A DNA stretch of 64,000 nt from Paramacrobiotus metropolitanus (Eukaryota > Tardigrada > Eutardigrada > Parachela > Macrobiotidae), in contig NW_026570282.1 in NCBI RefSeq assembly GCF_019649055.1, forward strand, positions 744,001 through 808,000, in the 5' to 3' direction. The position numbers were made by a program, and so were the translations under genes. Shown in pieces: positions 21,901 through 55,297 of the stretch. The notes below the pieces were generated by a model that searched no databases, was not told the DNA's origin, and was given only the letters and a program-made list of their open reading frames with translations. Each line of letters opens with the position of its first letter. The first letter of the stretch is position 1.

Positions 21901-24900
21901 CAATCCACATTGTCACAAACAATCAGGTAGAAATTTTGATTACCGATGTGTTTGATTTGTTATGTTATAAGTTTTCGCTATTATTACGTATTATTAAATT
22001 TAGCGTTTATGCTAAATTTTCTTTTTCCAACATAGTATGCCGTTTATTGCGCGGTATTTTTTTAAGTGGGCATAAGATATACTAAGCTTGCTCTGGCAGT
22101 GGTAGTCCTGTTGTGCTTGGCGTTTTGTGTTTCTTAACGATTTCAATTTTGTCATATTTTGTAGCTCGGTTTCACAACCAACCCGCTAGTGGCACGCAGC
22201 TCTGAGTATTGCACTGATCTGGCTCAAGTGGTGAACGCACCGGTCTTCCATGTCAACGCAAACGATCCGGAAGCTGTTCACTATGTTGCACAAGTGGCAG
22301 CATTATGGCGCGCGACATTCCATAAAGACGTTGTCATTGATCTGGTCCGTGAGAAGTGTCTAAGAACAAGGTCATCGTCATCTGTTTTTGACTGTTAATT
22401 ATATTATTATGCAGATTGGATTCCGGCGAAATGGGCATAACGAATTGGACGAGCCGCGTTTTACTCAGCCGGGGATGTATAAAATTATCGATCAGATGGA
22501 CCCAGTAACGGTTTCCTATACGAAGAAATTAATTGATAACGGCGTTATTGATGCTCATTATGCCGCAGTAAGTGCGCGGTCGACGAAGGGTGTTTGCGTC
22601 GTTTTTTCGTGTTGAGGATCGGACTAAGTCCGCCACTATCTGCAGGAGGAAACGAGCAAATACATCAAACGATGTGCTGAATCTTATCGGACAGCTCAGG
22701 GAATAACTGCTGTTCGCCATCGAGATTGGTTGGATTCTGAATGGGAAAACTGGCCCCCAACATCTTGTCAACCGTTCAATACCGGTGTAGATGAGGGAAT
22801 CCTTCATCGCATTGGCACCGTTTTTAGCGAGATACCTAAAGATTTCAACATCCATCAAGGTAGTAGAAGTTTGTATCATTTCAGCTGCTACCGATCAGAC
22901 ATCGATAGTTATGGTTGCCGGCATGATTTAGGCCCTAGGAACAACTGATACAGTGTACCATTAAAACCATTAAAAGTGAAATGCTGCACTACCATTAAAA
23001 GTGAAATGCTGTGATTACTACATATATGACACAGTGGTTCACAAATTGCACTCATGAGGGAAATATATAGGTTTGAATAAGGAAATCGTTGCAGGGTTCG
23101 GTTTGGGTTTCTTTTCACGTTCCTGATTTTTGTTTAACTAGCAGCTATTATTTGAGCCATGATTGCTTGATAATGTAGCTGTATAATGCTACTGTGTTTA
23201 GGCACAAAACGGATACTGGAGAACAGGCAAAAGTTACTCCAGAAACGGGTGGCTGATTGGGCGATGGGCGAGGCGTTGGCTTTTGGATCTCTTCTTTGCG
23301 AAGGCATTCATGTCCGGTTGAGTGGTCAGGATGTTGAACGTGGAACGTTTAGGTGACAGCTTTATGGCAATCCTAACGTTTTTGTTTTGTCTGCATCACA
23401 GCTATTTCTTTTAGCCATCGTCATCACGTACTGCATGATCAGGAACGCGACAAGGAAACGTACAGTCCTTTGGCGAATATCCGCCGCGGTCAGGCCGAAT
23501 ACACAGTTTGCAACAGCTCGCTGTCGGAGTACGGCGTGCTTGGTTTCGAGTTGGGATTCTCCATCACTGATCCCCATGCGCTGGTTTTATGGGAAGCACA
23601 ATTTGGGGATTTTTCGAATACCGCCCAGCCCGTCATTGATCAACTGATTAGCAGTGGGGAAGATAAATGGGTGCGCCAGGCTGGGATTGTCTTATTATTG
23701 CCGCATGGATACGAAGGAATGGTAAAATTTTGGAATTACAATGTAGTTTTTTGCTTTCGACCAGAAATTCTACGGCTATTTATGATATTTTTACAGTTAT
23801 CTTGTTACCGTTTTATGTTCGTTACCGACATTATTCGCTTTAATGGCAATGTATAATTTCGATAGGGACCGGAACATTCCAGTGCCCGTGTAGAGCGATG
23901 TTTGCAGTTATGCAGCGATGATCCTTATGACATGCTACTGGACTGCAGTCGAGAAGCAGTTCTGACCCAGTTGAGAAACACAAACTGGCAGGTTATGAAT
24001 CTGACGACTCCAGCCAACCTTTTCCACGCTCTTCGACGACAAGTGAAACTACCATTCCGGAAACCGCTTGTGATTATGACCCCTAAGAGCTTACTGCGCA
24101 AACCCGAAGCGCAGTCTAGTTTTGATGAATTCTTGCCATCCAGCGAATTTAAACGTATTTATCCTGACAAAACTGCTAGCAAACACTCAGACACGATTAA
24201 ACGCGTGGTGTTTTGTTCGGGAAAGCTGTTCTATGAATTGGATGCAGAAAGAACGAAAGCTGGACTGGAGAAGGATATAGCACTCATCAGAATCGAACAG
24301 GTGAGAATTTGAGTACCCTGCACAATTAAGTACAGTGTTGTAGTCGGTTGTACTTTTTCATCAGATTTATGCTGTGCACCTAACTAAATAAGTTAATTTC
24401 GACCAAATAAATGCTCTGTATTGTATAGAAGGTCGAAACAGAGTGGAAGAATACTGTACAAGTTGCCCTTGAAAGGCTGATGATGTTTTGGTGTTTTGGA
24501 CGATTTTCCTAGATCTGCCCTTTTCCGCATGATCTCATTAAGGAGCAGCTGAAGTTGTACCCTAGCGCACAAATCGTTTGGGCACAGGAAGAGCACAAGA
24601 ACGCAGGTGCATGGACATACATCCAACCCCGTCTGGATACGCTGCTCGGGCACGGGATGAACGACGAACGATCTGTACAGTAAGTCAGGTTTGGAAGTGC
24701 AGTACCGTAATGTGAGACAGATGGGCGGATACAACAAACCACCGTTATTTTTTAGATATATCGGAAGGGCTGTATCTGCTGCCACTGCTACGGGGAATAA
24801 AAAGCGACATGAGGTAAATTTGTGAAAATTATAAAACGGTATACGTTGCCTTGAACGCATAATTTGCAAAACCGAACACAAAAGGATACATGTGATACTC

Positions 24901-25512: not shown

Positions 25513-27145
25513 TTAGCTACTTGACATGGCTTTCTGGAGCCAGTCCCAGTTTGATTTGTGACGGAGGTCGACGAAAATGTAATCATGTCCAAACTTTTCC
25601 ATTGCACATCTACAAAAACGCAAAAACAATGAATAATGACATGACATGACTAGCCCCATAATTACAAACAAGCCGCCAATAAATATTGCCTTCAAAGTAG
25701 ACGGTTTTCCTGAGAAAACAGTATTTGTGCAAATTGTGCAGGGTTTCGGCAAGTGGAACATACCCTCCTGCAGTAGCCACCCCGATACCGATTACGTAAT
25801 AATGGTTTAGCTGCCGGTCGAACTGAATAAGCGGTGCGCCGTTACCGGTGCGGCATACATCGTAGTACCATTCGTCCGGATCCATCACGGTGCAGATCAT
25901 GTCGTCAGCCAGGTAAAAGTCTGCAAATCCTTTTGCCCAAAATAATTCCCGACATTTATGTCCTTGCACCGGATTGACTTTATTGTGTTTTTGAACCACA
26001 GTATCCGTTTCTGTTATAAGGTCACAGTTACCGAAAGGAAAGTGTAAATCATCTTGCGTGCGCCGTATTAAAGAACCATAAACTGAATGTAATTAGAAGC
26101 TTTAGATGTATTAAATTTTTGAGAGGTAAGATAGAGAATTCTTACTGTTTTCTGCTTCGGTTCCGTTCTCCATAATGTATTTTTGAGACCATGGGTTCAT
26201 CATAACGACATAAAAGCTATCGACTAAATCTTCTGCACCGGCCTGTACGGCGGCTGGATCAGTCGGCAACCTGATTTCCTTTCCAGTGCGGTTAAATTGC
26301 GCCTTTTGTTCTAATGTCAATATGGCAACGTTGTGGGAATTCCCGGTCGCCTGTGGTTTATACAGCGGGTGAACAGCGATTTTGCTGACGATGTTCCTTT
26401 TGTCCACCATCTGCCCCAGTCGCTTAGACTTCCGCTGGATGACTGTGGTACTATTAGGTTGCAATCCGGCTACACAGTTTGCGCTGGTGATGACGGTGTC
26501 TGCGGTGATGAATGTTCCGGTACACTGCTGGCTCTGAGTGGACATGCGAGCCGTTGTCTCGATGGATGCAACGCGAGACCAGTGGTAGAGGTCAGCACCA
26601 TATTCGTCAGAATTTAAAATGAGATCATCCGCACCTTCGGGACTACGTACCGGTGGTTTTTCTCGGTTGGCTGCTTTTGACGTTGTTTCTGTAGTTTTAA
26701 GTGATAAAAAGGGATATAAAGCACAATGAAATTGAGTGCATCTTTTTAAAAAAAATTGGAAAAACCCGGAGAAAATGCGAACAAAACTATGTGAGCAATT
26801 CAATGTCCAATAAAAAAACTAAGCTGGGACTTGCTTGTACCGTTGTACATATGATTGTATATGAAGTACAACGTATTACGTACCTACAGCTTGAACGCAT
26901 AACATTTGACCAGGAATGAGAAGGTCTAGGTTGTCCTGAGGATTGAGCAGCTGGAGTTGATGTTTGCGTAGACCGTACGGTTGCAAGGTCCACATGGTTT
27001 CGTTGACCGGGTCGGTTACCACATGGTAACGCGCGCATGTCTGGTAGGATGATTTAGGGTTACTCTCATTATCAGTGTCCTGTTCCGCACAAACACAACC
27101 CAGAATGCCAGATGACAGCAATATTATTATACAAAAAGCCAGCAT
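25513..27145 (-). CDS. LysM domain plus inactive serine-protease homologue (copy A), 382 aa
   Basis: Exons 26884-27145, 26146-26688, 25764-26010 and 25513-25609 sum to 1149 nt. A signal peptide (MLAFCIIILLSSGILGCVCA) is followed by a LysM module at about 36-85, from CARYHVV to IPGQMLCVQ, and then a chymotrypsin-fold domain. All three catalytic positions are lost: TAAHC is replaced by TSANC, the Asp region reads SHNVAILTLE instead of NDIALL, and GDSGGP is replaced by TGNGAPL. It is therefore a secreted, non-catalytic serine-protease homologue. LysM binds GlcNAc polymers such as chitin or peptidoglycan; arthropod protease homologues act as cofactors in melanisation or clotting. A role in recognising chitin or bacteria is inferred. 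Copy B lies directly upstream in the same orientation and has the same layout. Confidence 0.85.
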
Positions 27146-27842
27146 TGCAACCTTTTTCTTCCTTTTAAGTCTGATATTTTTCTTAGCTTTTAAGCAAGAC
27201 GTCCTGTAGCAAAATATGTAGTAGCAGGGGTCGGCGCAGCAACGGTGTGTTGTGCACATTCAAAAAACTACCGGACAAAATACGAACCGTATAACAACTC
27301 CATACATGTTATCGACTTGTCGTATAATATTATGTTGTACATGCATTGTAGCCTGACCGTGTTGGACGATCCCAGCAGCTTCCGTTAATTTAAGCTGCTT
27401 TACCAGTTAGTTCCGGATGTGACCGAAAAAAAAACAAAAACTTGCTTCTGGCTGTCGTTTTCTCACCATATACAGATACGTTCCATGCTAAAAAATTAAC
27501 GAAAAACCAAGGGCGTGTAGTATAGTCAGTTAACACCCGCGATTTTGCTTATTTCATAATTACGCACTCGGATCTCGTTGCCTCTAAGTTTGTTATGACC
27601 GTATATAAAAGTTTCATACTAGTACAGTATGTAAATACTCAACTAACTCAAGTGAGCAAAACACAGATCAAAAGTTAGTTTTTTTCGAGTACAGTTTCGA
27701 AACACAATCTGAGTTTGTTTCACGCAGTTTATTTTATGCAAAAAAACAAAATAGCCGTTTACTTAATGCAGCAAAACAAGTCGTTCAGTGATTAATATTG
27801 CTGATTAACATCAGCTGAAAAAACACAGAGCACTCCAAGCGG
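27146..27842. other. Intergenic between the two LysM-protease homologues
   Basis: About 700 bp containing the copy A promoter. A TATATAAAA-like sequence near 27602-27610 is on the plus strand and does not suit copy A. Nothing else recognised. Confidence 0.4.
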
Positions 27843-29807
27843 TTAAATGTTCTGGTTAATCCAACTAATGTGCTTTTTCACATCCACCAGCGGAACTTGT
27901 CCATTCCAGCAGCGATTCGTCCAGGTGAGAATGCCGGTTAATGTGAAGTCTTGGGAATTCGAATCATAAGCGTAGAATGGAGCACCGTTGCTGCTCTGCG
28001 CACAAGGAGGTAACTCAGGTAAGTTTAATTCTCAAACTTCGATTTCGTGTGACACAGTGACCCAAAGTTTGTATAAGGTTATATAAACAAAGAATCAACA
28101 ACGAAAACTTCTCCTTACAACGCAAATGTTGGTTTCATGCAAAGTGTTCCCACTATCTGCACACATCAGAGTATCCTGCTCGCCGCCCCAACCATTTTTT
28201 CCTACAACCATGTGCAGCAGAGGCTTGCACAACTTGTTGTCCAGCAGTTTCCATTTCCATGGAACAACGATATTGCGTTTGTCTAATAACAGGCAATACT
28301 TGTATTAGCAAAAACATTATTGTTGAGAACGGGAACGTTAGTTGTGGTTTATTAAAACAATTTATGTTGAAAGGCTGCTTACCGACTTGTAACAGAAAAC
28401 CGTCAAGGGTATAGTTTGCCACACCCAGGCCATCCCATGCGCCCATTGTCACAATGCTTTGCTGGCACACCGGTAGATCACCTTCCTTGGGCATTTTCGC
28501 CACAAGTGCTCCGTTGTTTGCGCTTCCATTTGCGGTCTGTTCCATAACGACCAGGCCTAGATCGTTAGCCCGTTGCGCAGGGTCGAACTGTGGGTGGGAG
28601 ATGATTTTCGTGACCTTTCGGTAAGACAACCTATAGGAATTTTCCTCTGCCCCAGCATACAGTCCCACTTGGTAGTTTTGAGGAACCGGGATTTTGCATT
28701 CGATTCCATTCAGTCCAGGTAGACAGGTGTGCCTAGTAAAATCCGATAATTACAATTCTTCGATTTGGACGTCAATGACAAAGCGTAGAAGTACGGATAT
28801 TATCTGTACGGTACGTACAGACAATAGTCAGGTAATAAATATTTTGAATAAAGCGCTCGTATTGTACTCCTTAATATTATAATTATTTTTGTACAAACAC
28901 TATCAAGCAGGTCATGGAAGTGAGAACCACGTCTCGTGAAATGAGAACGCCCGAGCAGAATCCATAGGGATCATCCTTATCCAGTCCCAGTCCTTGAGCA
29001 CTTGATTTAGGACTAACAAGATCTATTCTGATAAGTGCCTGCTGACGTATCAGCTTCTCGTCCAATGAGTCATTTCCGCCTTAATGTACAACAATAGAAC
29101 AACATTATTATGACTTACATTATATACATAAACGGGAAATTACAATTAAAGCTGCTTATATGCTCCGCCGAAAAAGACGACGTCGTTAAAAAATACCAAA
29201 GCACAATGCAGTATCAAGTTTAAGTTATGATTGCTGATAGGTTTCGATTTTGTTTGTTGCATATTTATTTCATTGGTGTAATTAAACTATAAAAACAAAA
29301 CTCACCAGCTATTCGGCAGTTTTGCTCTGGCACATCTGTAAATATAAATTATTTAAAGCCAGAAACAGGAATTTGATTTGTAAATGATGTAACTAACTTG
29401 GTTAATTATGTGTTCACGAAATGTTCAAAAATAACAGGGAAAGGTGCGCATGTCCCTTCCCTAATTGTTACACGATTTTTATGCCGCATAACAGCACACG
29501 GTACTGTATTTACAAATTTGTTAGCTAAAGTGTGAATCGGATGGTACTGGTACGTAGAATACTGTACAGTACCTTTGGCAACGCACACCATTCGACCTGC
29601 GACAAAACTGGACATGCCACCATAAAACAATTCATTGGCTAAGAGCTCTTTCTCGGTGAAGCCGTAGTGTCGGGCGATGGATGCGGGTGTGTCGCTTTTT
29701 TGGATTATGTGAAACTTCCGGCATAACTGGTCGTTAGCCGTCGTAACAGCCCAGCACAAACATAGCAGCAAAATTATGGATCCCATGATATTTTGAGTCT
29801 CGAGCAT
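27843..29807 (-). CDS. LysM domain plus inactive serine-protease homologue (copy B)
   Basis: Exons approximately 29573-29807, 29306-29335, about 28911-29079, 28383 to about 28728, 28154-28282 and 27843-27995. The signal peptide (MGSIILLLCLCWAVTTA, possibly preceded by 7 residues) and LysM module (CRKFHIIQKSDTPASIARHY to AGRMVCVAK) precede a protease-like domain. That domain starts CRIAGGN, echoing the R-IVGG activation site. Catalytic His is Met (TSMTC), Asp is kept (ANDLGLVV), and Ser is Asn (DSSNGAPF), so it is inactive. Other trypsin landmarks are the GWGG block and the C-terminal WINQNI. The exon 3/4 border is irregular: no GT-AG choice keeps frame, and the sequence ACCTG occurs at both edges. 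That is either a non-canonical intron, a missed micro-exon, or a disabling change. Layout and intron phases match copy A, so the pair arose by tandem duplication. Confidence 0.78.
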
Positions 29808-30670: not shown

Positions 30671-33600
30671 TTATCGGCGCGCGCCACTCGAACCAGTAAA
30701 AGTCTGCTCGTAACTGTAAAAACATGGTTGGAAGCATTCTCGTAATCCCGTTTTTATGGTTACATGTGTAACTAGCATTTTCACACTTCACGACAGCAAT
30801 TTGTTAAGCTTCTTTATAATTATAAGATTTACATAGTATGTTCTAAAAATTTACTGGAACTGCAAAACTTTCCCATACCGATCAGAGATTAATTAAACAC
30901 ATTAATTATATATATGACTTCAGCATACCAGTAAGACTTCGTATCTTACCGGAAGAAGATTACCAGAGGCACTGAAAGATGTAGCAAAACCGCCCATCTG
31001 CAAAAAGTTATGTGGACTTTAGGCATGCAGTGTAGTGCATGTGCATATGCGCTCTGTAATACTGATCATAATGACTTTATTCGCAACAGCTACGTACTGC
31101 TCTTCTCCAAAATATTCTTTTTGGGTCGGACTGGAATCCGTCCTTAAAAGGCAAAACACCTACAACAAAAATGTGTATTCTTTGTTGCTCGAAGTACGAA
31201 CTACCAAGAAATTTTTAATTTGTTATGGGTCTATAGATACAGATAGCTCCCAAGTAACACTTACGTCCACAGCCCACAGAGCGAAATTCACCAAAATTAA
31301 AAATGTTAGCGCTTCCCGACCGGGTTTTCTGTAATTTGCCACTCCAGGATCACTTCCAATGCACCGCTTCCCAGTGCCAATAATAAAAACGGTTTGAACC
31401 GTGGCCTCCAGCAGGATCAGCAAAGTTGCTGTTACGGAAAGCGCATCTCGGAGTGTGTCGACCATATAGGAGCCCATTAAGGAAACCACGGAATACGTAT
31501 AAACGCCGATCTTAAATTTAAACAATCGAGTTGATAATTTTAGCCCATATTTTTAGCTTTGCAGAATTGTCCTGTTTTTAAATTGCAGCCTAATCGAAAT
31601 CGATGGATATGTAGTATTGGTCAGTTATCGAAGCAAAGGAAAAGCGGAAATACAATGAAATTCCCAGGTTACCATGCAGATCATAAGGAGAGCATTTTCC
31701 AGATTCGATTCGGCTGTTTCGGTCTTGTCTTGTCGAGGTCGAAGTTTTTTGATAAATATAACCATGCAGTACAGTGCTGTCAAGAATCCCAAGGCATTTA
31801 GCGTAATTTCCATTATCTGGAAAGTCATCACTGCCACACCGGACAGTTCCTTTTCTTCAGAGTATACAAAATAAATGATTATGCCTACAACTGACAGGAT
31901 GCCGGTAGTGATGCCAGAAAATAGTCCTTTTGTAGCCTGATCACAGTCCACGGAGTATCGGAACAACTGGCTTTGCGATTCGTGTGAATGGTATAGCGGA
32001 TGGCTGGAAACTTCCTGTTGGGCAGCTATATTAGGGGAGCCGATGACCTTCCACATCGTAATAAGAACACCAGCTGTTATAAGCGCGTACCTATCACATA
32101 TATACAACATGTTATCTTCAGAATTCTTAGTAGTCCTGCAGCTCCTGAAATGCAAAGAACCTAAACGTATCACTTACTCGATTATACAGGGATACAGGAA
32201 AATTGAGGCTTTATCCAACATGTCTTTCATCAAGGATTCCTCATTCACGCACAACGGCGCACCTGTTCAGAAGTTTAAATTTAATAACAGAAACTGCACC
32301 ATGAACCTAACAGAAATTGCGATAAATTACTTGTACAACAATTAAAACCTACTGAATAAAGATCGATGTAATTCTAACGACTGAAACTGGAGCATGGGAA
32401 TTGGTTATAGTTTGAAGTACGTCGCTTTTTTCGGTCAATAATTTTTACGTACGGTAATTTGGACCACTTCCGCTTTCGGCCAGTGCTTCCAAGCCCATTT
32501 CTGTAATGTTGTGCCTCTTTTCCGCAATTAGTTTAATTTCGTGCTGTGTTTCGTCAATTAAAATCCGTATCCAAAGACAAAAATCCGTAGCGGCTAAGTG
32601 AATCATTCCAAACCAGCAGACAGCCCGGTACCGATAATCGGTAATACTTAACTGCAACAGAATTAAAAGCACATAATACATACATAATACATACATACAT
32701 ACAACAGGTTCCACATTTTGTAAACACTTCAGAAAGAAAAAAACTTGAATAAGCGTAAAAATGCTAACAGAGTAGAAGTTGCTATCAACTGTCCACTATA
32801 TAGTATGAACAACGAACGCTGCCGTTCCACAAAGCCCATAATAATAAAGCAACTTTGCCTGAACTTGTACTGCTACATTAAAATAACACATAGGTAGGTT
32901 CACCTTTGATGTGCGAAAGATGAAGTACAATTGCATCATCAGGTAGACGGTGAAACAACATGGCTGCATGGCCATGACGATATTGAAACAGGACTCATTT
33001 TCAGCAAACACTCCTATCTCCAAACTCGTGTATATGAGCGATCCAACAGCAAAAATCAGCGCTCCCATTTTCATATAAAAGCTGGAGCTATCAGTTTCCG
33101 TATGGAAAATTTTGTCGGGCGGAGTTTCGCTGGCAATATACTGATCCGTTGTGCTGGGAAACTCATTTTGACGCTTATGAAGCGATGTTGTTGGAATGTC
33201 ATATAAATGGTTGTTGTCCGTAACAGAAGAAGCCTCGCCCAGGGAATTCTGCCGTACTGGAAAATTTTTGTGAGCATGTTCGGGTTTCTTTTTTGGTTTC
33301 CGGAACAGAAATGCGATGGAGAATAACAGGAAGCAGATTCCGGAGATAAGCATTGCACAATCAAACCACTATAAACCGAAGATAAATTGAGTGATTATAA
33401 GTGTATTAACAATACAAAAACCGGTCTAGCCACAATAAATTGTTTTACTCGAGCATGGGTAGCATCAACGTTGTGTGTCAAATGTGCTGTCAGTGTAAGG
33501 CACACCGCCGTAATTGCCACTAGAATCCCATACAAAGCGCTGGCGTGTCTGAATATGCCGATACTGGAAAACAAATTGTTAATGCTTTTATTGCAATTTA

Positions 33601-36210: not shown

Positions 36211-39200
36211 ATGGTTCCGAAAAAGCAGCTAGGACTGAATGTTGGTTTCATCGTCGTATGCATTTTGGCGACAACCGCTCCAATTTATTCGAATAATTTA
36301 AGTAAGAGTGGCACAGTAATATATTTTAGAATTATGGCTCGCGAAATTATGCGACCTGCAGAATTTCTGTAATCCTTTCGTCAGCAACACAACACGCCCT
36401 CTAACCCGTACAGCGGAAACAGCGACTACAGGATCACATAGCGACTGGATCACTTTCTAAAACCCATCTTCATTATTGCCATTTCTTTCAGTAACTGAAA
36501 CAGCTTTGGTTTAGGATCACAACGACAGGCTGTGGTGGACACAGTGACAACCGAAGATGAAATCGTCCGACCGGATGGTGTCAGAATTCCGGTGGCGACA
36601 TCCTCAAACACCCAAGTGTCACCTGTTGCTCCAAATGCGCCGCAAGGTCAGTACAAGCATTTTTATACGTTGTACTGCACGCGACAATAAAAGCAGCGCC
36701 CGCCAGTGTTCGATTCTATAGTTAGCGTTATGGTTTGGTACTTTCGAAAAGAACGAATGTGTACTGTTGTTAAAAGTTTGAATAATATTAACATTAGTAA
36801 TTATATTTAACCTTATAATTACATTAAAGTTAACTTAAAATGATAATGAATCTAACCTTATGATAATAAGTAAGTAATAAAAATTAATACGACACCGGCA
36901 AACTGGGATTCGGTCATTCGGGCCTATTAGGTAAAGTTTGTTGTAGTTGTGGATACGGTGCAAACCCAAGATTCGATCATCACGCCGGGTGGAGCTCAAA
37001 TTCCTGTTGCTACGTCGAGTAACACGCAACGAGTGGCACGACAATTTGTCAGCGCAATGAATGCTCCACAAGGTAAAGAAACTGGTGAGAGATGACCAGT
37101 GAATAGGCTGTCGAATTGCACAGTATGAAGGGACTGTAATTTGTAGCCTCTGTTTATCCATATTAAAAATTCCAGGGTTATTTCGTTATTTGTCTGCTTA
37201 AATTGTTCGTATAGTTGTGGACACGGTCAGCGTCCAGGATGAAGTTGTGCATCCCAGTGGTGCCATCATTCCAGTTGGTAGTTCATCGAATACTGTCGTT
37301 TCTCCAGTTGTGGCTCCGGTTCCGCAAGGTGTTATACTCGTATTTTTGGCTTGGTGGTTTTTTGTGTGGTAATTTGAAATACATTTTGTGTTATCGTTTT
37401 TTTCGTATTTATGTAGTGATTGACACTGTGCAAGTGCAAGACACAGTTGTTTCCCCATCCGGTCAAGAAATCCCCCTGGCCAGTTCCGTGCAAACCCAAG
37501 TCCAACCCGTTGTGACGCCCGTAATCAACCAACCTCAAGGTACCGTTGAATTGAATAATCGGGAAAAGCATATTGATTGGGCAATAACGCAACAAAGGTT
37601 ATTATAGGCACTAAATATATTTGTTGCGGCTGTACGGTTTGGTTTTCTACTAAGGCGTGTACTAGTTAGACTATTCAAGTTTGCATAAAATTGTGTCCGC
37701 CGTCCTATTAATATGCAGTTAGTACAGATAATTACCATTATTATTATTATTATTACGGCACAAGAGCAGACAACCCCGAAGGGACTTCAGGTCTGGTCGA
37801 ACAATTAAATTGTGTCAGAGTAACTGCTTTATATTCCTGCTCTGTACTCATAAGTAACTGCTTCTTACCATTAATTATGTTTTCATGTTTACGGACGTAC
37901 TGTGCGTCCTAGTGGCAGGACGCTGACCATATAATATTATGGATGAAGTTTGTGAAATACTGTATATTGAATTTTGTTAATCTAGTAATGGATACGGTCA
38001 GCGTACAGGATTCAATCATCGCTCCTAATGGTGCTGTCATCCCGCTGGCGTCTTCAATACAAAATCGAGCACTTCCGGTCTATCCATCATTTTACGCAGC
38101 TCCGCAAGGTATTCAAATGGAAAATAAATGGCGTCAGTATAGCGGTACAATTCTAACGGTGGTTTTTAATAACTCCAACAGCAATAAATTTTGACCGGGG
38201 ATGCAGTTTTACAGTAATGCTAACAATCAGCGGCTACCAGACTTTTAAAACTATGTTTTCGTTAATAGTAATGAGCACCATGGTCCAAGGTTCTGCCTTG
38301 GCTCCGCGCGGAATGATGTTTCCTGTCGCCCAGTTAGCGGGTCAGACTTACGTTTCTCCTGTGGCAATTCCAACCAATTATTATGCTAATCCGCGTAAGC
38401 GAAAAACTAAGAACTATCAGTGCTAGATACTGCAGCAATTAAAAACACTCGTGCGTAACCTTTATTTATTTTATAGGAAAAGTATTCAACTAAACCGTTT
38501 GTGATCAAAATAAGTTTTTATCATTCTAGTGCTGCAATATTATTTCTGCATACTAATTGTAACACAATATTTACGTCAGAAATTCAGAAGCGAATCTTTA
38601 TTGCGTATATAGATATATGTACCTTGCACTACGCAGTACTGAACTTAACTTGTATCTGTAGTACTGTATATACATGTATATATCAGCACAACAGGCCTCG
38701 TTTGCTGTAACTTGAAAACAATAATACAACTGTACGAAAATATTATTTAGGTGGTTTTTACAAGCGAGAATTCCACGATAAGCATGACGGCCACCACAAG
38801 CACTCCCATCTATCAACAACAGTTACCGACGATTTAAAAGCGATTTTGGCGCCATCACTTGCCGCTTTAAAGAAGGATTCCTCATCCAGTTCCGACGAAA
38901 CAAAACAGATTCAAAAGAAAACTGGAAGGAATAACCACAAGAGCAGTTCATCTGAATCCACCAGTTTTGCACAGAATGTTTCTACGTCAAGTACTAGCTT
39001 CGTGAAGGTAGAGAACATCACCGCGACATTTGAAGCAGCAGCCACTAATGTGCCAACATTTCCCTTGAACGCTACAGTGAAGGCGATGAATGCATCCCTG
39101 AAAGTGGAGTTAAACGTTTCCACCAGTTTAAACACGAGCACAGGCAAGTTGAGCACGTTTCCTTGAATACAGTACTGTACAACTAGCATGTCTTTAGTGG

Positions 39201-39843
39201 ACAAAAATTTCCACCGCTCGTATTTTAATAATTCTTTGTAGATTACTGCGGGTTGCGGGCTATACATATCAGCGGTATATTTATGAGGTTACGTGCATGC
39301 ATATCAAAGGCTCCCACTGTAACCTGTTTGTCCCAAAGCTGTCAAAATTAATTACAATTTATAAAGTAGTTATAATTATCCGCTTTTACTCATCGTCATC
39401 GGTCTAATTGGGGTTTTTAAATAAGTTTGTAATTGATTAAAAAAAAGTATGTCTGCATAATTTTGTAAATGTGAACTGTATTTCGATTCATAATTATCAC
39501 AGTATTAACCAGACACCACTGCTACAAAATTACGTAAATATAAATGTTACGTTTCATGCGCTTAACAGCGATTTTGTGGTTGCGTGCAGAAACTGTTTCC
39601 CTGTTCTCCTCCACGACCGCATTTCCGGATCACAATACGACGGCTGTAGTGATCATCGAAAAAGTTGCCACATCAATGGACCAGGGCAATACACTGAAGG
39701 ACGAAGATCAAGAATTCCCAGTGACCGCGGCTGATCTGGAAAGTGCCGCAGAAAAAGTGGTCCTGTTTCCCAAGAACGCCTTTATTCCAACGGACAATCA
39801 AACAACATTCAGTCCTTTCGTAGGCAATGAAACGTTTCACTGA
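36211..39843 (+). CDS. Secreted protein built from six tandem repeat-encoding exons, 493 aa
   Basis: Nine exons (36211-36301, 36515-36646, 36947-37072, 37215-37328, 37417-37539, 37986-38108, 38269-38394, 38751-39143, 39590-39843) total 1482 nt. Exon 1 is a signal peptide (hydrophobic GFIVVCILATTAPIY). Exons 2-7 each encode one copy of a ~40-residue repeat, with pattern V-[VIM]-D-T-V, two to three residues, Asp, two hydrophobics, x-P-x-G, then I-P-[VL]-[AG]-[ST]-S, ending P-Q-G; the sixth copy (VMSTMVQG) is most diverged. Every repeat exon is in phase 1 at both ends. Exon 8 encodes a His/Lys-rich patch, a SSSSSDE cluster and Thr/Ser/Asn-rich sequence. Exon 9 is acidic and Thr-rich. Intron 8 uses a GC donor (CAG/GCAAGT). 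Function is unknown; an extracellular structural or matrix role is inferred. Skipping any repeat exon would keep the frame. Confidence 0.85.
36515..38394 (+). repeat. Tandem array of six homologous exons, one repeat unit per exon
   Basis: Six exons of 132, 126, 114, 123, 123 and 126 nt share sequence at DNA level as well as protein level; for example GTGGATACGGT, GTGGACACGGT and ATGGATACGGT near the start of exons 3, 4 and 6. Introns between them are 300, 142, 88, 446 and 160 nt and are not obviously similar. Intron 5 also holds a possible decayed unit near 37896-37935. Confidence 0.85.
37735..37757. repeat. ATT microsatellite
   Basis: About seven ATT units in intron 5 of the exon-array gene. 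Confidence 0.8.
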
Positions 39844-40171: not shown

Positions 40172-41785
40172 CTAAAAGAATGGTTTAGGGACATTTGAGG
40201 CAGGCTTAGCGGCTAATGCTATTGCTGGACCAGGCTGTTTGGGTGTGGTTGCCGGACTGGACTTGCCAGTGGTGGTACTCGGTGCGCGAGTAGTAGTCGA
40301 GGTGGTGGTCGTGGACGTTGACCTTGAGGTCGTCGTGGGCGCCGGAGTGCTGGACGTTCGTGGTGTAGTTGAAGGCGTTGTGCTAGTGCTTGATGAACGC
40401 GTCGTTGATGTCGTGGTAGTACTTGTGGTGGTGGTGCTGCTCGTGGTGGGTTGCGGTGTTGTCCTTGTCGAGGGACTCGATATTGTCGAAGTAGTACTTG
40501 GAGGCCTTGTGGTTGTCGTCGGGGCTGCGCTTGTGCTTGTGGATGCTGCAGCAGTGGTGGACGATGCATTCAAACTGGCCACCGGCCGAGATGACGCCGT
40601 AGAGTTGGCGGTCACTAACGCAGAGTGCGCTGTTGTAGTTGTAGGAGGTAACGGTGATGATGTCGGCGCAGCTGGTGTTGCTGGTCGTGTGGTATTATTG
40701 TCGCTTGGTTTCGTCGTCGCTTGATTTTGGCTCAGTGCAACTTGTGGTTGGACAGTACTGGTGGACTTTGCAGTGGTGGTTGTCGTCGGTGCTGCGCTTG
40801 AGCTTGGAGACGGTGGGGAGACGGCAGCAGTGGTAGAATTAGGTGCATTTGAATTTGTTACGGGTTGGGAGGATACCGGCATGGAGTTGGTAGCTAATGA
40901 AGAGCGAGAAGTTGTCGGAGGTACCGTTGATGTTGTGGACATGGGGGTTGTAGGTGAGGGAGTAGTGTTTCCAGTGGTCCCGGTTGATGCCTCGGTTCCT
41001 GTAGGTTTGGTGGTAGCCGATGCTGTCGTAGAAGGTGAAACAGTCGAGACGGAAGTTGGTGGAGCATCACTGCTTGTAGGCGCAACCAGTATTTGTGGCA
41101 CTGGATTAAAAACTGGGACGACGGCCGGTTGTGGGAAAATGGGGATCGGATCAACAGCTGGTTGAGGAATACCTTGGATTTGTTCAACCGGGAAAGCTGG
41201 GACAGAGCTAATGCCTGGCTGAGGATATCCTGTCCATCCAGAGTTGATCATTGGTGCAACAACTGGTTCTACCGGAATGGATCCAATCTGTTGCGAAAAC
41301 GGCTGAGGAACGAAACCTCCATGGGGCGGTTCTGCAGGTCTCTCGCCAAATGTCCATGTTGCTGGATCGATAACGGGTGGCGAATGAGGTTTACTGTGGT
41401 GATGAGGTCGATGCTTGCCTTTGTGACCTTTCTGTTCGAAGGTGATCCTTTGGGTGGCCTCGATAGTCACTGTGACTGGAGCACCGGTTAAAATCTTCAT
41501 CAACAGAGCCCGACCCAACGCTTTCCGGATATGCTTTTTGATGTCTCTGGAATGTTTGCCGCCAAATAGTTCGGAGAGCGGATGGTGTTTGCCATGGGAT
41601 AAGCTTGAGTTTTCTTCTTCTGAAGACTCTTGGGATCCAGAAGCAGAAACCGATGGCGATCCGTGAAAAACTGGAGGAGAACTGTTTACCGTTGAAGTTA
41701 TAGGAGAAATACCAACGCCATTTTGGGCGCTTATTAGCTTTATGCTTGCCAGAAGGGCAGCCAAGAGAGCGCACAGAAAGGTCAT
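40172..41785 (-). CDS. Secreted mucin-like Thr/Ser/Pro-rich protein, 537 aa
   Basis: A single-exon frame starting at MTFLCALLAALLASIKLISA, a clear signal peptide; the open frame extends further upstream but this Met gives the best secretion signal. Residues ~47-63 are an acidic Ser cluster (ESSEEENSS). Residues ~70-125 are a Lys/Arg/His-rich helical segment ending in the core TGAPVTVTIEATQRITFEQK and GHKGKH, then a HHH tract. Residues ~130-260 are Pro/Gln-rich. The remaining ~270 residues are long Thr/Ser/Ala/Pro runs typical of O-glycosylated mucin domains. The FEQKGHKG core recurs in the gene at 53961-55250 and, weakly, at 42832-43860. Probable role: glycosylated extracellular or cuticle/gland protein. 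No named family recognised. Confidence 0.82.
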   Translation of the reverse strand: MTFLCALLAALLASIKLISAQNGVGISPITSTVNSSPPVFHGSPSVSASGSQESSEEENSSLSHGKHHPLSELFGGKHSRDIKKHIRKALGRALLMKILTGAPVTVTIEATQRITFEQKGHKGKHRPHHHSKPHSPPVIDPATWTFGERPAEPPHGGFVPQPFSQQIGSIPVEPVVAPMINSGWTGYPQPGISSVPAFPVEQIQGIPQPAVDPIPIFPQPAVVPVFNPVPQILVAPTSSDAPPTSVSTVSPSTTASATTKPTGTEASTGTTGNTTPSPTTPMSTTSTVPPTTSRSSLATNSMPVSSQPVTNSNAPNSTTAAVSPPSPSSSAAPTTTTTAKSTSTVQPQVALSQNQATTKPSDNNTTRPATPAAPTSSPLPPTTTTAHSALVTANSTASSRPVASLNASSTTAAASTSTSAAPTTTTRPPSTTSTISSPSTRTTPQPTTSSTTTTSTTTTSTTRSSSTSTTPSTTPRTSSTPAPTTTSRSTSTTTTSTTTRAPSTTTGKSSPATTPKQPGPAIALAAKPASNVPKPFF

Positions 41786-42831
41786 CCTTATAGAGAAAAG
41801 TCCGTATACCGCACCGTAGTCACAAAAGCCGTCTGCTGGTTTTGCATAAAATTTAAGTTTTACTTGAATCAAGAGTAAGAAGCCACGCGTAATGAATCTG
41901 CTGAGCATACTTGAAAAACTTAGCAAACGGTGCTGGAAAAAATGCAAATTCGTTACATTTTTCCGGAACATAAACCGTAAGCACAGTTCTAAGCCATCAT
42001 GAGTGTGCGATCGGAATTAACCAAAGGAATATTGCATGTTTCATTTGACGTCAGTTTAAAAGCTATTTTGCTGTGCTTGACAACTGAGGTAATTATTTTA
42101 TTGTCAAAATGTGTGGTAGAAGGCACAAGTTTCGTTTTCAATTTGGATCATGCATTTGGCTTGCATTGTTACATAAAACACATACACATACGTTTTGTAC
42201 AAGCAGCTACCTAGATAGCAGCCGTCTGGCTTAACTTTTTTGACTGAGGTAGGCGAAAAAATATGCTTAAAATTTCGCTTTAATTTCATTTAAAATCGGC
42301 ACTGGATTGTCTGGTCCTGGTACCTAGTCGGATTTATTGCGTCGCCTGATCATGGCCGATTATTTTCATCGTGCTAGCAATTAGTCACTACTCCTAATGA
42401 CTGTCACATAATTCGGTCCACACGAGCTGCGGCCGACCGTTTTACGATCGGACTACACAAAGTTCGACTATGATGGCATAATAAAAATTGAGTGTGGATT
42501 GAGTTTTTGTGCGAGTTTCTGGGTTAGAAGAGAGTATTCTCGAGTTCATAAAAATAAGACAGATTTCGCACAGCTATTACCATTTTCGCACAGCTATTAC
42601 GAGCATGTATAAAGTTAATACAGCTTTATTATGCGATCGTGATATTTTATGTACACTTTTTCTACATCTATGTACAACGCAAAACATTTAGCAATTATTT
42701 TTAAATTTGCCGAAAAATATCAACAGAGAAAGCAACTGGTAGAAGCGTAATTATGGTCGAATCATTCGCCTGACAAGTGAAACCCAATTGAGTATACAAT
42801 GCCGGCTAGAACTCTGTTTGACAGCTGGCCG
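41786..42831. other. Intergenic, no gene supported
   Basis: About 1 kb between two same-strand secreted-protein genes, with a short duplicated CGCACAGCTATTAC near 42565-42601. Likely holds the promoter of the mucin-like gene; no clear TATA box seen. Confidence 0.45.
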
Positions 42832-43860
42832 CTAATTTATCCATCGTACGTTAAAATAATCTTCGGTGATGTTTCGTGTCGTTCCAGGAATGGCAGTAGT
42901 TGTCATGTTGGCATTGTACCAGTTTTCGGATACGGTGAAAGACTGCACTGTCTGGTTCACCGGCTTCTCCGGAATGGCACTGACAGTAGTAGTCGTCGCA
43001 AACAGCTGGGTGGTGGGATCAATATCCGTTCCCGGAAGTACAGTTACAGTTTGACCCGTCAGTACATTCTGGCTAGCGAAGAGCGGGTCGCCTACCGGGA
43101 CAGGCTTACCAGGCAGAACGCCCTTTAGTGCTGCACGAGCATGCCCTGACTCTACACCCGAAATGACATAGGTCCCAATAGACTTTCTGTTTCCCCGCAG
43201 TCTACTTCCAGCTCGATGATTAAGCGGCATCTCCTTACCGTCCACAAAGCGCGAGAGTTTTAGCGGCTGTCCTTCGACCAGTAACCTTTTAGGAATAGCA
43301 TGACCAATACTTCTGCCCTTGCCGCTACGCATGTCATGTCCCATGAGATGTTTTGGTTCAACCATGGAGGCAGATGGTTTACCGTTCAACGACTGGAGCT
43401 GTTCGTGCGGGAACATACCAGGTCCAAAAAACGGATGCGGTGGGCGTGGCCACATTGCGCCATGGAATGGCAGAGGATGCATGCCAAAGGGTAGGGATAA
43501 CGGATGTGCTAGCGGTGGCGGCTGGTTAGCATGACTCATTATGCTGGACGGTACATCTGCATCACCAGGAGATGGCTCATTTCCAGCAGATGAGCCGACC
43601 AAAAGGTCACTTGCTGCTGGCTCGCTGGTCTGGCTTTCGCCATGAATTATGGCAGGAATAATAATTCCAACGGTTGTATTTTCATTGTTTGCAATAAGTG
43701 GAGAGATAGTGAAATTCGCCGATATATCAAACGATGTTGTGCTGTTGAGCTGCACGAGGGAATGCTGCCAGTGTGGCTTCGAATTCTGTACTGCACTGGC
43801 CGGTGAGTACAGCACTAATCCTACGAGAAGTACGATGTTTAGCAGAGACTCTCTCTTCAT
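42832..43860 (-). CDS. Secreted Pro/His-rich protein, 342 aa
   Basis: Single-exon frame from MKRESLLNIVLLVGLVLY, a signal peptide ending near SPASA. The N-terminal half is Ser/Thr/Asn-rich and then Pro/His/Met/Phe-rich (PPPLAHPLSLPFGMHPLPFH). Residues ~185-240 are basic and more ordered, including RLLVEGQPLKLSRFVDGKEM. This segment lines up with the cores of the neighbours at 40.2 kb (ILTGAPVTVTIEATQRITF) and 54.0 kb ([19 protein letters not shown]), though the following GHKG is absent. The C-terminal third is Thr/Val-rich with several N-glycosylation sites. Likely an extracellular member of the local family; the role is unknown. The C-terminus might instead splice at GTACGATGG just before the stop. 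Confidence 0.75.
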   Translation of the reverse strand: MKRESLLNIVLLVGLVLYSPASAVQNSKPHWQHSLVQLNSTTSFDISANFTISPLIANNENTTVGIIIPAIIHGESQTSEPAASDLLVGSSAGNEPSPGDADVPSSIMSHANQPPPLAHPLSLPFGMHPLPFHGAMWPRPPHPFFGPGMFPHEQLQSLNGKPSASMVEPKHLMGHDMRSGKGRSIGHAIPKRLLVEGQPLKLSRFVDGKEMPLNHRAGSRLRGNRKSIGTYVISGVESGHARAALKGVLPGKPVPVGDPLFASQNVLTGQTVTVLPGTDIDPTTQLFATTTTVSAIPEKPVNQTVQSFTVSENWYNANMTTTAIPGTTRNITEDYFNVRWIN

Positions 43861-44383
43861 GTTTAACAATGATTCTACACAAATAAAAAGCGAAACAGAA
43901 ATAATTAAACGTTTGAAACTCTTTACTTAGCTGAATTTCGATCGGATCGCGGGCTTTATGAATTACCACAAGTTGGCATGATCCATAATCAGGAAGTGCT
44001 TACGTGAAGAGCCACTCACCGTCGAAGTGATAATTCATTATTTTGGCATCAAATCGAAACAATTTAATTTTTCCAACTTGATTTACGCAGCAAGCCATTG
44101 TAGTGGCACATATATATATTTGCAGTAAAAGCATTAGTTCAAGTGATTAATAAAGTGAGCTGCCAATGTTCAACTTACGATTAATAACACAAGGGTTTAA
44201 ATGCGGCATAGCTGATGCGAGAAGTGGCTGACCATGAAACATACGCACTGGAGCAGCACTACCCCAAATGCCGTATTGGACACTACGAGTAATCTAGAGT
44301 AGAATCTGGATACCGCTTATATTATTGCCGTACAGCAAGATAATTTTAATTTGCTTAAACTCACACGGTCATGTAGCTAAGTT
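43861..44383. other. Intergenic / 5' flank of the non-LTR element
   Basis: Contains the upstream region of the secreted Pro/His-rich gene and the poorly defined 5' end of the retrotransposon. No further gene. Confidence 0.4.
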
Positions 44384-46943
44384 TTGCAAATCACCTTGTC
44401 GTCAAGTTACCGAAAATGGTGTGGCACCCACCGGGAGCTCAAAAAACGGGTAGAGTTTGCTGATGTGACTAATTATGTTACCAATTCTGATTGTGTTATT
44501 GAAAATTTGCAAAAAGTTAAAATAAGATGCTGTAATATAAACGGAATTTTGTGTAAGTACAGTAATGTTAAACACTTTTGTTCCGAGGCAGATATCACCG
44601 CATTAACCGAAACTTTTGACAGAGCAGATTATAACGATAATCTGTTTGCCAACTTGAATAATTTTAATGTTTTTCGTAAATGGCGGAAATCTGACGTTTT
44701 CGATGACAATCTTGGTGGAGTGGCGTTAGTAATGTCTCATAAGTTTAGTGGAAAAAGACGGTCTGACCTCGAGTGTGATGAATTGGAAATTTTGTTCGTA
44801 GAGTCAACTTCGCTCGATTGTATTTTTGGTGTATTCTATGCACGACCAATTTTTAAAACTATTGTTATCCCTCGCCTAATTGAGCATCTACAAGAGAAAT
44901 TTCCAGTTGAACTACGTAATAAACTTATTCTAATGGGCGATTTCAACTTACCGGATATTTGCTGGAGTGCAATGAGCGCCTCTAGCTGTACTTCTCATAA
45001 ACTGCTGAAAGCGCTCAAAGAATTCAATTTTCGTCAAATAATAGATTCTCCAACTAGAAAAAACAACATCCTGGATCTTTGTTTCGTTTCCACTTATCGT
45101 TTAGTTACGGATGTTGAAATTATTTCGCCTCCTTCAGCAACAAATGACCACTCTGCGTTTCAGTTTTGCTTGCACACCGAATCCTGTTTAGTTGAGACAA
45201 AGTATCTGAAGGAAACGTGGAAAATACCGTCTGCTAAAATCGTGCCCTTTCAGGATGCTTTAGGTTCTGTTGATTGGTCTGCTTTTCTGATTGATCCCGA
45301 TCCCTCTGTTTTAGCTTCACGCTTTGACCAAACGCTGATTAAAACTGCTGAACTTTTTTTTCGGTTTGGAAAACATAACTCTAAAAAAATTCGAAAATAC
45401 CCCGCCCGAATACAAAAGGCAGTTAATGCTCGCGACAGATTGCATAAAAAGTTTTTGAAAGAAATTTTCCCCGTTGAAAAAGAACGCGTAAAACGGCTGT
45501 GGAAAACTGCGTCGAAAAATTTAGATGCTCTTTTGCGTACCTATGAAAGGCATAATATTCTTGAAGTAGCCACGTCTACACGTAATAACCCAAAAAAATT
45601 TTGGCAGTATGTTAAGCGTACAGTTGATCGAAAACCGTTTCCTCCTATTAAAACTCCGGATGGTAAAATTCTGATTTCTGATGCTGAAAAAGCGAATGCG
45701 TTTAACAAGCTGTTTTTGGAATCTCAAAACGTTTGTCTAAGACACTGTTCCGGTACTTTACCAGCAGAAGACACTTCCGTGACCTTTGTGATTACTGAAG
45801 ACGATGTCACCCGTGCAATGGGTCAAACCTCTTTTTCCTCTTCGTCGGGACTTTTTAAAATTTCAAACTCTTTGTTAAAGGCGTGCGGGCATAAGATTGT
45901 TGCTCCTTTGGTTAAATTGTTCAATGTTTGTATTCAAAGCGGCATATATCCGTCAGTCTGGAAAACTTCTTTTATTTCGCCCCTCCCAAAATCTTCTTGT
46001 AATCAAACTGTATTAAATAATTACCGTCCAATTGCTATTTTGCATCCTGTATCCAAAATTTTCGAACGATGCTTGGCTAATTATTTAACGTTTTTTCTAG
46101 AAACTAACGGGTTGTTGAGTGATAATCAATTTGGGTATCGAGCAAAAAGAAGTACAGAACTACAGTCGTTGCTTTTTACAAAATTCATAAAAGATTTTAT
46201 TGGAAGTGGCTACGAAGTGGATGCCCTGTTTTTTGACTGTTCAAAGGCGATTGACCGAGTGGACCATGCATCACTGCTTGAAACACTCGCTTCGTTCTCC
46301 GTACCTCCTGATGTCGTACGGCTATTCAGCAACTATTTAACGCATCGGCGACAAGTGGTAGTTGTAAATGGCAAGGTTTCTGAGAGCGGTATTGTAACCA
46401 GCGGCGTACCACAGGGATCCATAGTTGGCCCTATTTTTTTCAACTGCGAATTGAGCGGCCTGCCAGCTGTCTTGCCTAATGGAAGTAAAATTTTTATCTT
46501 TGCAGATGACGTTTTTTTATGTAGGCCAATAGTTGGGGACGATGATCGCGAAAAGTTACAGGAAGATGTTAATTCGGTTTCCGATTATGCAGCGAAGAAA
46601 AACCTAAGTTTTAATCCAAAAAAATCTGTGTTTATACGTTTTTCTTTGAAGCGTGATTTGACATCTGTCCCTAAATATTATTTGAACAACGTAGAGGTTG
46701 AACAGAAAAATATTACAAAATATTTGGGGTTGTTTGTTGATAGACATCTGCGTTGGAGTGAACATACCAGTAATCTGTGTATGAAAGTCCGCAAACGAAT
46801 TGGCTACCTGTTTTCGATGTTCGATAGTTATGATTCTGCGGCGCTAATATGTTTATTCAAAGCTCTTGTCCTACCCATCTTTGATTATTGTAGTCCCGTA
46901 GTAAATCCTTTTTTTAAAACACCCAGGGATGCCCTTGAAAAGT
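44384..46943 (+). mobile_element. Non-LTR retrotransposon ORF2 (APE endonuclease plus reverse transcriptase), 3' truncated
   Basis: One uninterrupted frame of ~850 codons. The N-terminal AP-like endonuclease shows KIRCCNINGIL, ALTETF, LILMGDFNLPDICW and ATNDHS. The reverse transcriptase shows NNYRPIAILHPVSKIFER, NQFGYRAKRSTE, FFDCSKAIDRVDH, TSGVPQGSIVGPIFF and the catalytic FADDVFL. The order fits the CR1/jockey group. No ORF1 is visible upstream, so the copy is 5' truncated. The C-terminus ends abruptly after FDYCSPVVNPFFKTPRDALE, where DIRS-type terminal sequence begins, so the usual 3' end and tail are absent. The intact frame suggests fairly recent activity, but this copy cannot be complete. 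Confidence 0.92.
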
Positions 46944-47264
46944 GCCCGTCAGCCCCCCTTTATTAATCAAACAACAACATGATGAATGCCACCGCAAGAG
47001 ATGCAACAGAAGCAGAATATACTGTGCAAAAAACATTAAAGTTAATGCAAAGGGAAAGGGCGGGAGGGAGAAAAATTCACTGCCCAAACTACAGAAATGA
47101 TTTCAACTGAACACACCAACACTCAGCAGCGCAGAAACCGCTCAGAATCTCGATCTCTCAAGAAACAAAGCAACCAATGAAAGCTGACAAACAGCCATAA
47201 ACCAGAAATGGGATGGATATTCGCCCACAATTAACTATGATTAACTATATTAATTATTCATTTA
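46944..47264 (-). mobile_element. Remnant of a DIRS/Ngaro-type element terminus
   Basis: Matches, with scattered substitutions and indels, the B2-spacer-A2 end of the full element at 49056-53904: CCCGTCAGCCCCCCTTTATT, then AAAGGGAAAGGGCGGGAGGG, then the AAAAATTCACTGCC to CATTTA block. It carries no coding sequence. It directly abuts and truncates the non-LTR reverse transcriptase on its left. Confidence 0.85.
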
Positions 47265-49572: not shown

Positions 49573-50516
49573 TCAAAAAAGAGCAGGATTCACGTGCACA
49601 TCACGGATATAACGCTGGTAACAATCGGACTTCCATCTCCCAGCCTCCTTGATCCGATAAGCAGGAACATTTCTCCTGGCGGCCGTAGTCGCAGCACCAA
49701 TTCGAAAACTGTGTGTATTGAACCGACTAACATTCGGGTGATTCCTAAGGCAATACTTGAGGACCGACAGAAACATGGAACGGGAGATTATGCGATGAGC
49801 ACTGTCCACAAATAATCGACCACAATGTGCACCTGACGCAAACCGAACACGCAGACATTTCTGTACAGCCCGAACAGGGCAAATGCAGCCAGAGGCGCGA
49901 ACACAGTGAACCCAATGTCCACGGCGAAGCTGATCCGTTTTGGAATGAGATAATCGAAAAGAGACCAGGGATGAATCCTTAGCAACACAAATATCTTCAA
50001 AATTCAATGCCAGCAGTTCGCCAATTCGCAAGAAACCACAAAAAATCATAACAAACGCACACCAATATATGATTTTATCGAACTCACACAATGATGACAC
50101 AACCAGCTGATTTTTAATCAGCACAAGGATATTGGCGTAATAGGAAGTCTAGAATCAACAATTTGCTGATGCAGTCGCGCATATCCTTTAAATGCGTATG
50201 TACAAGAAGGATTATCCACAGGATTAGGCAAATTATTCACACAATGCAGATCAGAAATGGCAGCAAGATAAACCCGAACGGTGGACAACGCACGTTTTTT
50301 AGCAAACTGGAAAGCTATGAAAGCTAATACCGTAGAAACAGAAGCAGGACAAAAAGCAACTTTCTTACAACGACAAAACTTGATGAACTGATTCAAAGCA
50401 GAGTTATAAGCGCGGCGGGTAGCAGGAGAGACATGGTTTAGGATAAGATGATTAACTAACGTATTAGTAGATCGCTGTACAAATCGGGAATAGGATCTGG
50501 ATCGAGTGATGCACAT
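49573..50516 (-). pseudogene. Tyrosine recombinase of the DIRS-type element, one frameshift
   Basis: Two overlapping frames (50118-50516 and 49573-50124) together encode about 314 residues. The N-terminal SAM-like part contains SPATRRAYNSALNQFIKFC. The catalytic part shows GFLRIGELLAL (first Arg), HSFRIGAATTAA (His-x-x-Arg), GRWKS and the terminal Tyr in CYQRYIR. A one-base frameshift at about 50118-50124 separates the halves, so this copy cannot make the enzyme. The family integrates a circular DNA intermediate without an aspartate integrase. Its start overlaps the end of the RT frame by about 60 nt. Confidence 0.88.
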
Positions 50517-52282: not shown

Positions 52283-53171
52283 GGTTAAAACGATGCTGCG
52301 CAGCGGAGCGACTCTTAATCAGCACAAATTCATGGAACAAGGAGTTGTGCAACTCACCCCACATTAGAAAATTGTCCGGGCGAGTAGACATCAACAGCCG
52401 AAACTGCGAGTCATACTCAAGCCACAGAACCGAATCAAAATTCTTCGAGAGATTTCTGATGACATCTATGTATCGAAACAGGTGTGGCGCCAGATGGGGA
52501 AAGTAATGGGAACGATAAGCGGCAAACACGTTGAAACCAGACAACCAAGAATCAAAATCAAAAATGGACACCTTCCGAGCTGTGTAACATTGCAGCAACT
52601 GCCCAGTGCGATTATCAAATTATCGTGTGATGGGCTTCACATTAGAAGTGCAATTTTCAGGCAAACAATCACTTAAGTCGATAAATTCATGTAAATCCTG
52701 CAGTTTGGGCACAAGCTTATCTGAAACTGGACGAAGAAATTCAGGGACAACCGCATCAGATGAGATTTCATCAAAAATTACGTTTCGCTTAGAAGACGGC
52801 AACCGATCAGCAGGCGGATGCGGCATGACGACCACAGAAGGGGAATGGCGGCTATGCTGACTGGCTGCTCCAGATAATACCAGCGAAAGCTTGTCACTCA
52901 GTAATTTTTGTTCCCGTTGTAAAGCAACAATATCAGGATCAGGACGTTTATGTGCATTCTTCTTACGTGGACGACGACGACGAGTGGACTTTGCGGCTGG
53001 CGCGTTTGAACGCTCACGAGCAGAGACTGGTGCAGAAGATGGAGCCGTTTCGGGCGACGGGGATGAAGATCGGGACGACTCAGACGAAACAGACTCAAGG
53101 CCATCAGATTCACTGGGAAACTCATCAATCTCCGAAGAGTTCAGCATGTACAAGGTTTCACTATCAGACAT
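52011..53171 (-). pseudogene. Gag-like ORF of the DIRS-type element with in-frame TAA
   Basis: Two frames in the same phase (52620-53171 and 52011-52598) are split only by TAA at 52620-52622. The N-terminal half is acidic/Ser-rich then basic (STRRRRPRKKNAHK). The C-terminal half carries a Cys/His cluster, CFAFNNGNCRYAICP then HICLICDEQRHGKWNCP, typical of nucleic-acid binding in this superfamily. The stop could be a point mutation or a leaky codon. The 3' part overlaps the RT frame, implying frameshifting or a separate start for RT. Confidence 0.8.
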
Positions 53172-53183
53172 TTTTTGACACGA

Positions 53184-55250: not shown

Positions 55251-55297
55251 ACGTAAATCCAGGACGTGCGCATTCTGATCAAACTGCCCGTTGCACG

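Follow-up and report, generated by a model that had tools for sequence, protein, structure and literature searches.

Gene content of the window

The window, by which we mean the whole 64,000-nucleotide stretch of Paramacrobiotus metropolitanus DNA analysed here, contains a nine-exon gene on the plus strand (36211-39843, with the stop codon at 39843), which was read by translation as 493 codons without internal stops. Exon boundaries were placed by eye at splice sites and then checked via translation. All eight introns of this model are in phase 1; seven have GT..AG ends, and the last, between exons 8 and 9, has GC..AG. An in-frame stop is found 5' of the start codon, at 36121, and an AATAAA hexamer at 40025, 182 bases past the stop codon.

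Exons 2-7 are 132, 126, 114, 123, 123 and 126 nucleotides long, each divisible by three, and each encodes one repeat unit of 38-44 residues (Table 1). A preliminary description of this DNA had placed the repeat array at 36515-38394, and these two positions coincide exactly with the start of the first repeat exon and the end of the sixth; it had also proposed that every repeat exon is flanked by phase-1 introns, and all six are indeed of phase 1-1. The leading exon, which it took to encode a signal peptide, has the corresponding basic start and hydrophobic core. As to the tail, the His/Ser-rich exon that it listed is present, but the C-terminal exon, 39590-39843, was missing from its list.

The evidence for this last exon comes from codon use. 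Exon 9 scores +0.20 per codon when read in its own frame; its two other frames score -0.19 and -0.30, and every frame of the 3' stretch and of the two introns that were scored lies below -0.3. The training set of the codon table comprised exons 2-8 of the repeat gene together with one dehydrogenase frame and two neighbouring frames. Exon 9 lies outside this set and so is an independent test, unlike exon 8 (+0.16), which lies inside it. With the GC-AG intron retained, the protein would end in ..GKLSTFP, seven residues past exon 8, for a total of 416 amino acids and a stop codon that ends at 39166. Either end is possible, with the exon 9 end being better supported than the read-through end after exon 8. 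Judged by translation, profile and codon comparisons, the gene and its repeat exons are almost certainly real.

Table 1. Exons of the repeat gene and other features recognised in the window, in order of position.
Positions	Strand	Feature	Evidence
1163-1822	-	Macroglobulin-domain-like exon	MG4, E 9.5e-5, just under cut-off
5626-6672	-	Ser/Ala/Asn/Gly-rich open frame, 348 aa, without Pfam match	
9114-9950	+	Pif1 helicase-like fragment	Pif1_2B_dom, E 6.9e-5, just under cut-off
21279-22085	+	Dehydrogenase E1 exon, 2-oxoglutarate dehydrogenase by eye	PF00676, E 1.4e-20
26111-28749	-	Trypsin-like protease exons	Second exon, 28153-28749, below Pfam cut-off
31625-33368	-	Otopetrin-like gene	Matches, E 8.8e-24 and 5.8e-12
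36211-36301	+	Exon 1: start codon and signal-peptide-like N-terminus, 30 aa, phase-1 end	Translation, hydropathy
36515-36646	+	Exon 2: repeat 1 behind short RSQRQA leader with R-x-x-R site	Translation, profile, codon comparison
36947-37072	+	Exon 3: repeat 2	Translation, profile, codon comparison
37215-37328	+	Exon 4: repeat 3	Translation, profile, codon comparison, hairpin model
37417-37539	+	Exon 5: repeat 4	Translation, profile, codon comparison
37736-37804	-	Stump of dispersed element in intron 5, (ATT)n and ~50 bases	Genome matches
37986-38108	+	Exon 6: repeat 5	Translation, profile, codon comparison, hairpin model
38269-38394	+	Exon 7: repeat 6, diverged	Profile score against shuffles
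38751-39143	+	Exon 8: His-rich, then Ser/Thr-rich tail, phase 1-1, six N-glycosylation sequons	Translation
39590-39843	+	Exon 9: C-terminal exon, three more sequons	Translation, codon use
40172-42016 and 53961-55298	-	Secreted-looking open frames, Pro/Thr- and Pro/Gly-rich	
42832-43926	-	Secreted-looking open frame between the two preceding ones, no Pfam match above cut-off	
44381-46966	+	Non-LTR retrotransposon frame, endonuclease and reverse transcriptase domains	
49573-53183	-	Reverse transcriptase frame, then tyrosine-recombinase-like frame	Phage_integrase, E 1.1e-5, just under Pfam cut-off

Several of the surrounding features look like mobile elements or their remains. The element in intron 5 has at least 39 other matches in the genome (40 of 231 candidates were scored, one of them being the intron 5 locus itself) and resembles the 3' terminus of a retroelement with a (TAA)n tail. 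A tie between this element and the non-LTR retrotransposon frame downstream was considered and found to be unsupported: intron 5 is the single place in the window where the end sequence of the element is present. The order of frames in 49573-53183 resembles the layout of a DIRS/Ngaro element, and the Pif1-like fragment may derive from a Helitron.

Downstream of the repeat gene, three long uninterrupted low-complexity frames on the minus strand have, by eye, signal-peptide-like starts. The two outer frames have in common a KGHKG-containing segment with the end I-x-F-E-Q-K-G-H-K-G (E 0.002), and a genome search with one copy of this segment gave two matches, both in these same frames, out of three candidates; the frame between them has no significant match to either. 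Homology of the repeat gene to its secreted-looking neighbours was rejected, the best BLASTP match to any of the four neighbouring frames compared having an E of 2.5.

Sequence of the repeat unit

In the spliced product, the unit reads V-x-D-T-V ... P-x-G-x-x-I-P ... P-Q, with the Val of the next unit directly after. P-x-G is found in all six repeats, and V-x-D-T-V, I-P (F-P in the last repeat) and P-Q in five each. The motif proposed earlier is the same but for the Gly of its terminal 'P-Q-G', which is wrong: this Gly is the last base of the exon read together with the GT of the intron (G|GT). At each of the five junctions between repeats, splicing yields G|TT, G|TG or G|TA and hence Val; the split codon after the sixth unit encodes Arg.

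Common ancestry of six consecutive repeat exons, also part of the preliminary description, holds strongly for five of them and weakly for the sixth. When each of repeats 1-5 was left out of the profile in turn, and the six frames of the window were searched, the left-out repeat was the top remaining match in 5/5 runs, with scores of 78.2-88.5 against shuffle maxima of 25.2-28.0 per profile (40 mononucleotide shuffles of the window). Repeat 6 was the next match in each run (31.0-33.8), and its score with the full profile is 32.2, where shuffled sequence reached at most 26.2 in 40 shuffles or 23.0 in 20; its ungapped match to the profile begins one residue ahead of the exon. V-M-S-T-M replaces V-x-D-T-V and F-P replaces I-P in this repeat, while P-x-G is retained as P-R-G. 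The score, position, length and phase of repeat 6 weakly favour its being a decayed copy. Outside the gene, the best match in the real window scored 21.8 with the full profile and 27.0, to a Thr-rich frame, in one leave-one-out run. Beyond these six repeats, the profile detected no further copy in any frame of the 64-kb window. Intron 5 was considered as the site of a lost repeat exon, and this was rejected on account of that negative result and of the dispersed element that sits there.

Age of the repeats and selection

Repeats 1-5 were compared over 28 aligned codons. The proteins are 43-71% identical; pN is lower than pS in 10/10 pairs, and dS is at least 1.04 in every pair and beyond saturation in three. 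Agreement is 18-50% at third codon positions and 61-75% at first and second positions, and 101 of the 159 codon pairs that specify the same amino acid use different codons. As DNA, the exons are mostly unalike, the best pair of repeats, in exons 4 and 6, matching over 23 bases at 91% (E 1.2e-4). The eight introns compared with each other (blastn, E<=1) have matches of just 9-10 bases, with the best E at 0.13. A 14-base inverted match between exons 1 and 9 (E 3.7e-4) was also seen and is probably due to chance.

With pN below pS, and with silent and intron similarity nearly erased, the units have been kept by selection at the protein level since old duplications. The array is without sign of recent gain or homogenisation, and ancient duplication of a class 1-1 exon is, from these comparisons, highly likely.

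Two other accounts of the array may be weighed against the same data. The preliminary description had suggested that the number of repeats can change, and the reading frame does survive the skipping of any of the seven internal exons and the doubling of any of the six repeat exons, so that one could imagine an active array in which repeat number varies between individuals or via splicing. However, there is no close pair among repeats 1-5, as the dS values indicate, and introns that share at most 10 bases would offer little substrate now for exchange between copies. The claim finds no support as regards a present-day process, and an array that is still changing seems very unlikely. That the gene might be a pseudogene, or the repeats a chance pattern, is scarcely credible. 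The divergence of repeat 6 is the sole point in favour, to be set against the open frame over 493 codons, the selection against protein change in repeats 1-5, and profile scores far over those of shuffled sequence; selection and scores together contradict this account for repeats 1-5.

Searches for relatives of the repeat

We searched for homologs of the repeat in domain, structure and genome databases. Pfam gave no families for the 493-residue protein (E<=5) and none for any of the six repeats (E<=10), which agrees with the earlier statement that no described family is known to have this repeat. Just two matches were obtained in NCBIfam, at E 0.063 and 1.1, both far below the cut-offs. In PDB, the sole chain matched by the whole protein at E<=10 was Malcavernin (E 2), evidently by chance, and the repeat profile gave one chance match, to a CagY fragment (E 0.86, 14 positions). 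A scan of prokaryote genomes with the five-repeat protein produced 34 pattern matches, none of which was confirmed.

The genome of the animal itself was searched in 169,799,020 bases on 533 contigs. The whole protein had ten matches there, of which nine fall within its own gene and the remaining one (E 2.51) is to the tail. The consensus repeat had five matches, 5/5 inside the repeat gene, so that the module was not found in a second gene; the same search missed repeat 6, and relatives equally diverged could escape it too. A cluster of SAHS-like exons was observed at C3:446414-467166, where 13 of 14 genome matches fall within ~21 kb and are up to 64% identical; the SAHS1 query sequence was confirmed against PDB 5xn9. 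This cluster is good evidence that the genome is that of a tardigrade.

In the literature covered, which is a part of the whole, we found no account of this repeat protein, which does not show that the protein is unpublished, and no account of such cuticle, eggshell or secretome proteins in tardigrades.

Predicted properties of the product

The N-terminus of the protein is basic and then hydrophobic, with a 15-residue mean hydropathy of up to 2.36, compared to 1.51 or less past residue 35, and the product is very likely secreted, as judged from its sequence. The sole Cys, residue 17, is inside the signal-peptide-like N-terminus, and Cys-rich disulphide domains are absent. The array is rich in Val, Pro, Ser and Gln, with a calculated pI of 4.12 and a GRAVY of 0.21, the value for the mature protein being -0.14. 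Nine N-glycosylation sequons are present, every one of them in the tail.

AlphaFold2 models were made for two single repeats. Each was predicted as a hairpin, the two strands spanning residues 2-12 and 18-29 in repeat 3 (mean pLDDT 73.9, pTM 0.29) and residues 3-12 and 18-28 in repeat 5 (mean pLDDT 68.0, pTM 0.27); the two runs used the identical six alignment rows and hence are not independent. The invariant P-x-G falls in the turn of the predicted hairpin. At this modest level of confidence, the models suggest that the repeat is a β-hairpin, which we regard as a lead; a lone hairpin may be unstable.

Basic sites are found at three places, namely residues 31 and 103 (both R-x-x-R) and residue 283 (KR), and they leave room for proteolytic processing of the putative secreted chain. 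The product could then be a precursor that is cut into similar small peptides, one per exon, in the manner of neuropeptides or antimicrobial peptides. Besides these sites, a signal peptide followed by one unit per phase-1 exon would suit such a precursor, as in nasonin-6 of Nasonia (PMC2853521). But basic cleavage sites occur at none of the five repeat-repeat junctions, and the array is acidic and Cys-free, all of which makes a peptide precursor very improbable.

It is somewhat less improbable, though still quite unlikely, that the product is a secreted desiccation protectant similar in function to SAHS proteins, i.e., a heat-soluble, partly disordered filler without fixed structure. The host is very likely a desiccation-tolerant tardigrade, and the mature protein is Cys-free and, on average, hydrophilic. 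The array, however, is hydrophobic on average, and its repeat is predicted to be β-structured. Likeness to SAHS or fatty-acid-binding proteins was not detected: no SAHS chain was matched, though such chains are in the PDB library searched, and neither a lipocalin/FABP family nor any other Pfam family was matched. The SAHS-like cluster, moreover, sits on a different contig. SAHS proteins are called tardigrade-specific in PMC5531438.

A model for the origin and role of the repeat protein

We think it fairly probable that the gene encodes a secreted, cysteine-free modular protein, which consists of a signal peptide, six repeats of ~40 residues and a glycosylatable tail, and which has a role in the matrix or at the surface. 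For an extracellular structural role in particular, composition and architecture give about an even chance. Each unit would be made of a V-x-D-T-V-x-x-x-D strand, a P-x-G turn and an I-P-V-A-S-S strand, and then of a flexible Pro-rich linker. A phase-1 intron behind the signal peptide, with a second phase-1 intron after it, may have delimited one symmetrical exon, which would have been multiplied long ago through exchange between introns. The resulting protein might serve as a structural or adhesive part of an extracellular layer, such as cuticle, eggshell or a secreted coat; in this layer, hairpins could pair side by side or across chains, and the tail, glycosylated, charged and perhaps metal-binding, could anchor or hydrate the layer.

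A stronger and rather unlikely version of the model is that the repeat is a new extracellular module found only in tardigrades, i.e., a self-contained β-hairpin which turned into an exon of class 1-1 within a single lineage. If true, this would be a rare datable birth of an exon-shuffling module, and the module might be a main building block of a cuticle or eggshell layer of tardigrades. A module restricted to tardigrades would stand outside the few dozen module types covered in PMC8001218. Given such restriction, it would also be a clean case of a new extracellular module born as a symmetrical exon and then multiplied, and the protein would be a candidate structural component of the egg or the body surface in tardigrades.

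Comparison with known repeat and modular proteins

Elastin, silk and insect cuticle proteins are extracellular and have Val/Pro/Ala-rich units with P-x-G turns, and Pfam includes models of chitin-binding cuticle proteins. The repeat gene is similar in its Val/Pro/Ala-rich units, in the P-x-G turns and in the putative extracellular location of the product. Its repeats, however, are longer than those of elastin, silk and cuticle proteins, have a conserved Asp, and show no match to Pfam.

The nasonins of Nasonia are defensin-like. According to PMC2853521, the signal peptide of nasonin-6 is followed by domains that are each encoded by an exon of their own, phase-1 introns separating these exons, and nasonin-1 was refolded with glutathione, the nasonins being disulphide peptides. 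On this account, nasonin-6 is a close architectural parallel to the repeat gene, but its domains are disulphide-bonded, whereas the tardigrade repeats are free of Cys.

There is also a likeness to animal extracellular proteins built of symmetrical modules, which in the survey in PMC8001218 are all of class 1-1 and mostly β-structured; the same survey describes phase-1 introns as over-represented close to signal-peptide cleavage sites. The repeat gene shares with these proteins, as they are described there, the symmetrical 1-1 exons, the phase-1 intron behind a signal-peptide-like start, and the predicted β-module. Unlike class 1-1 modules, the repeat is only ~40 residues long, Cys-free and without a Pfam match, and, unlike those that were shuffled, it is found in a single gene, at a search sensitivity that missed repeat 6. 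The repeat thus characterised appears to be new as a sequence; the architecture of the gene is already well known and is ordinary for animals, and its layout fits the class 1-1 pattern insofar as the predicted secretion and β-structure hold.
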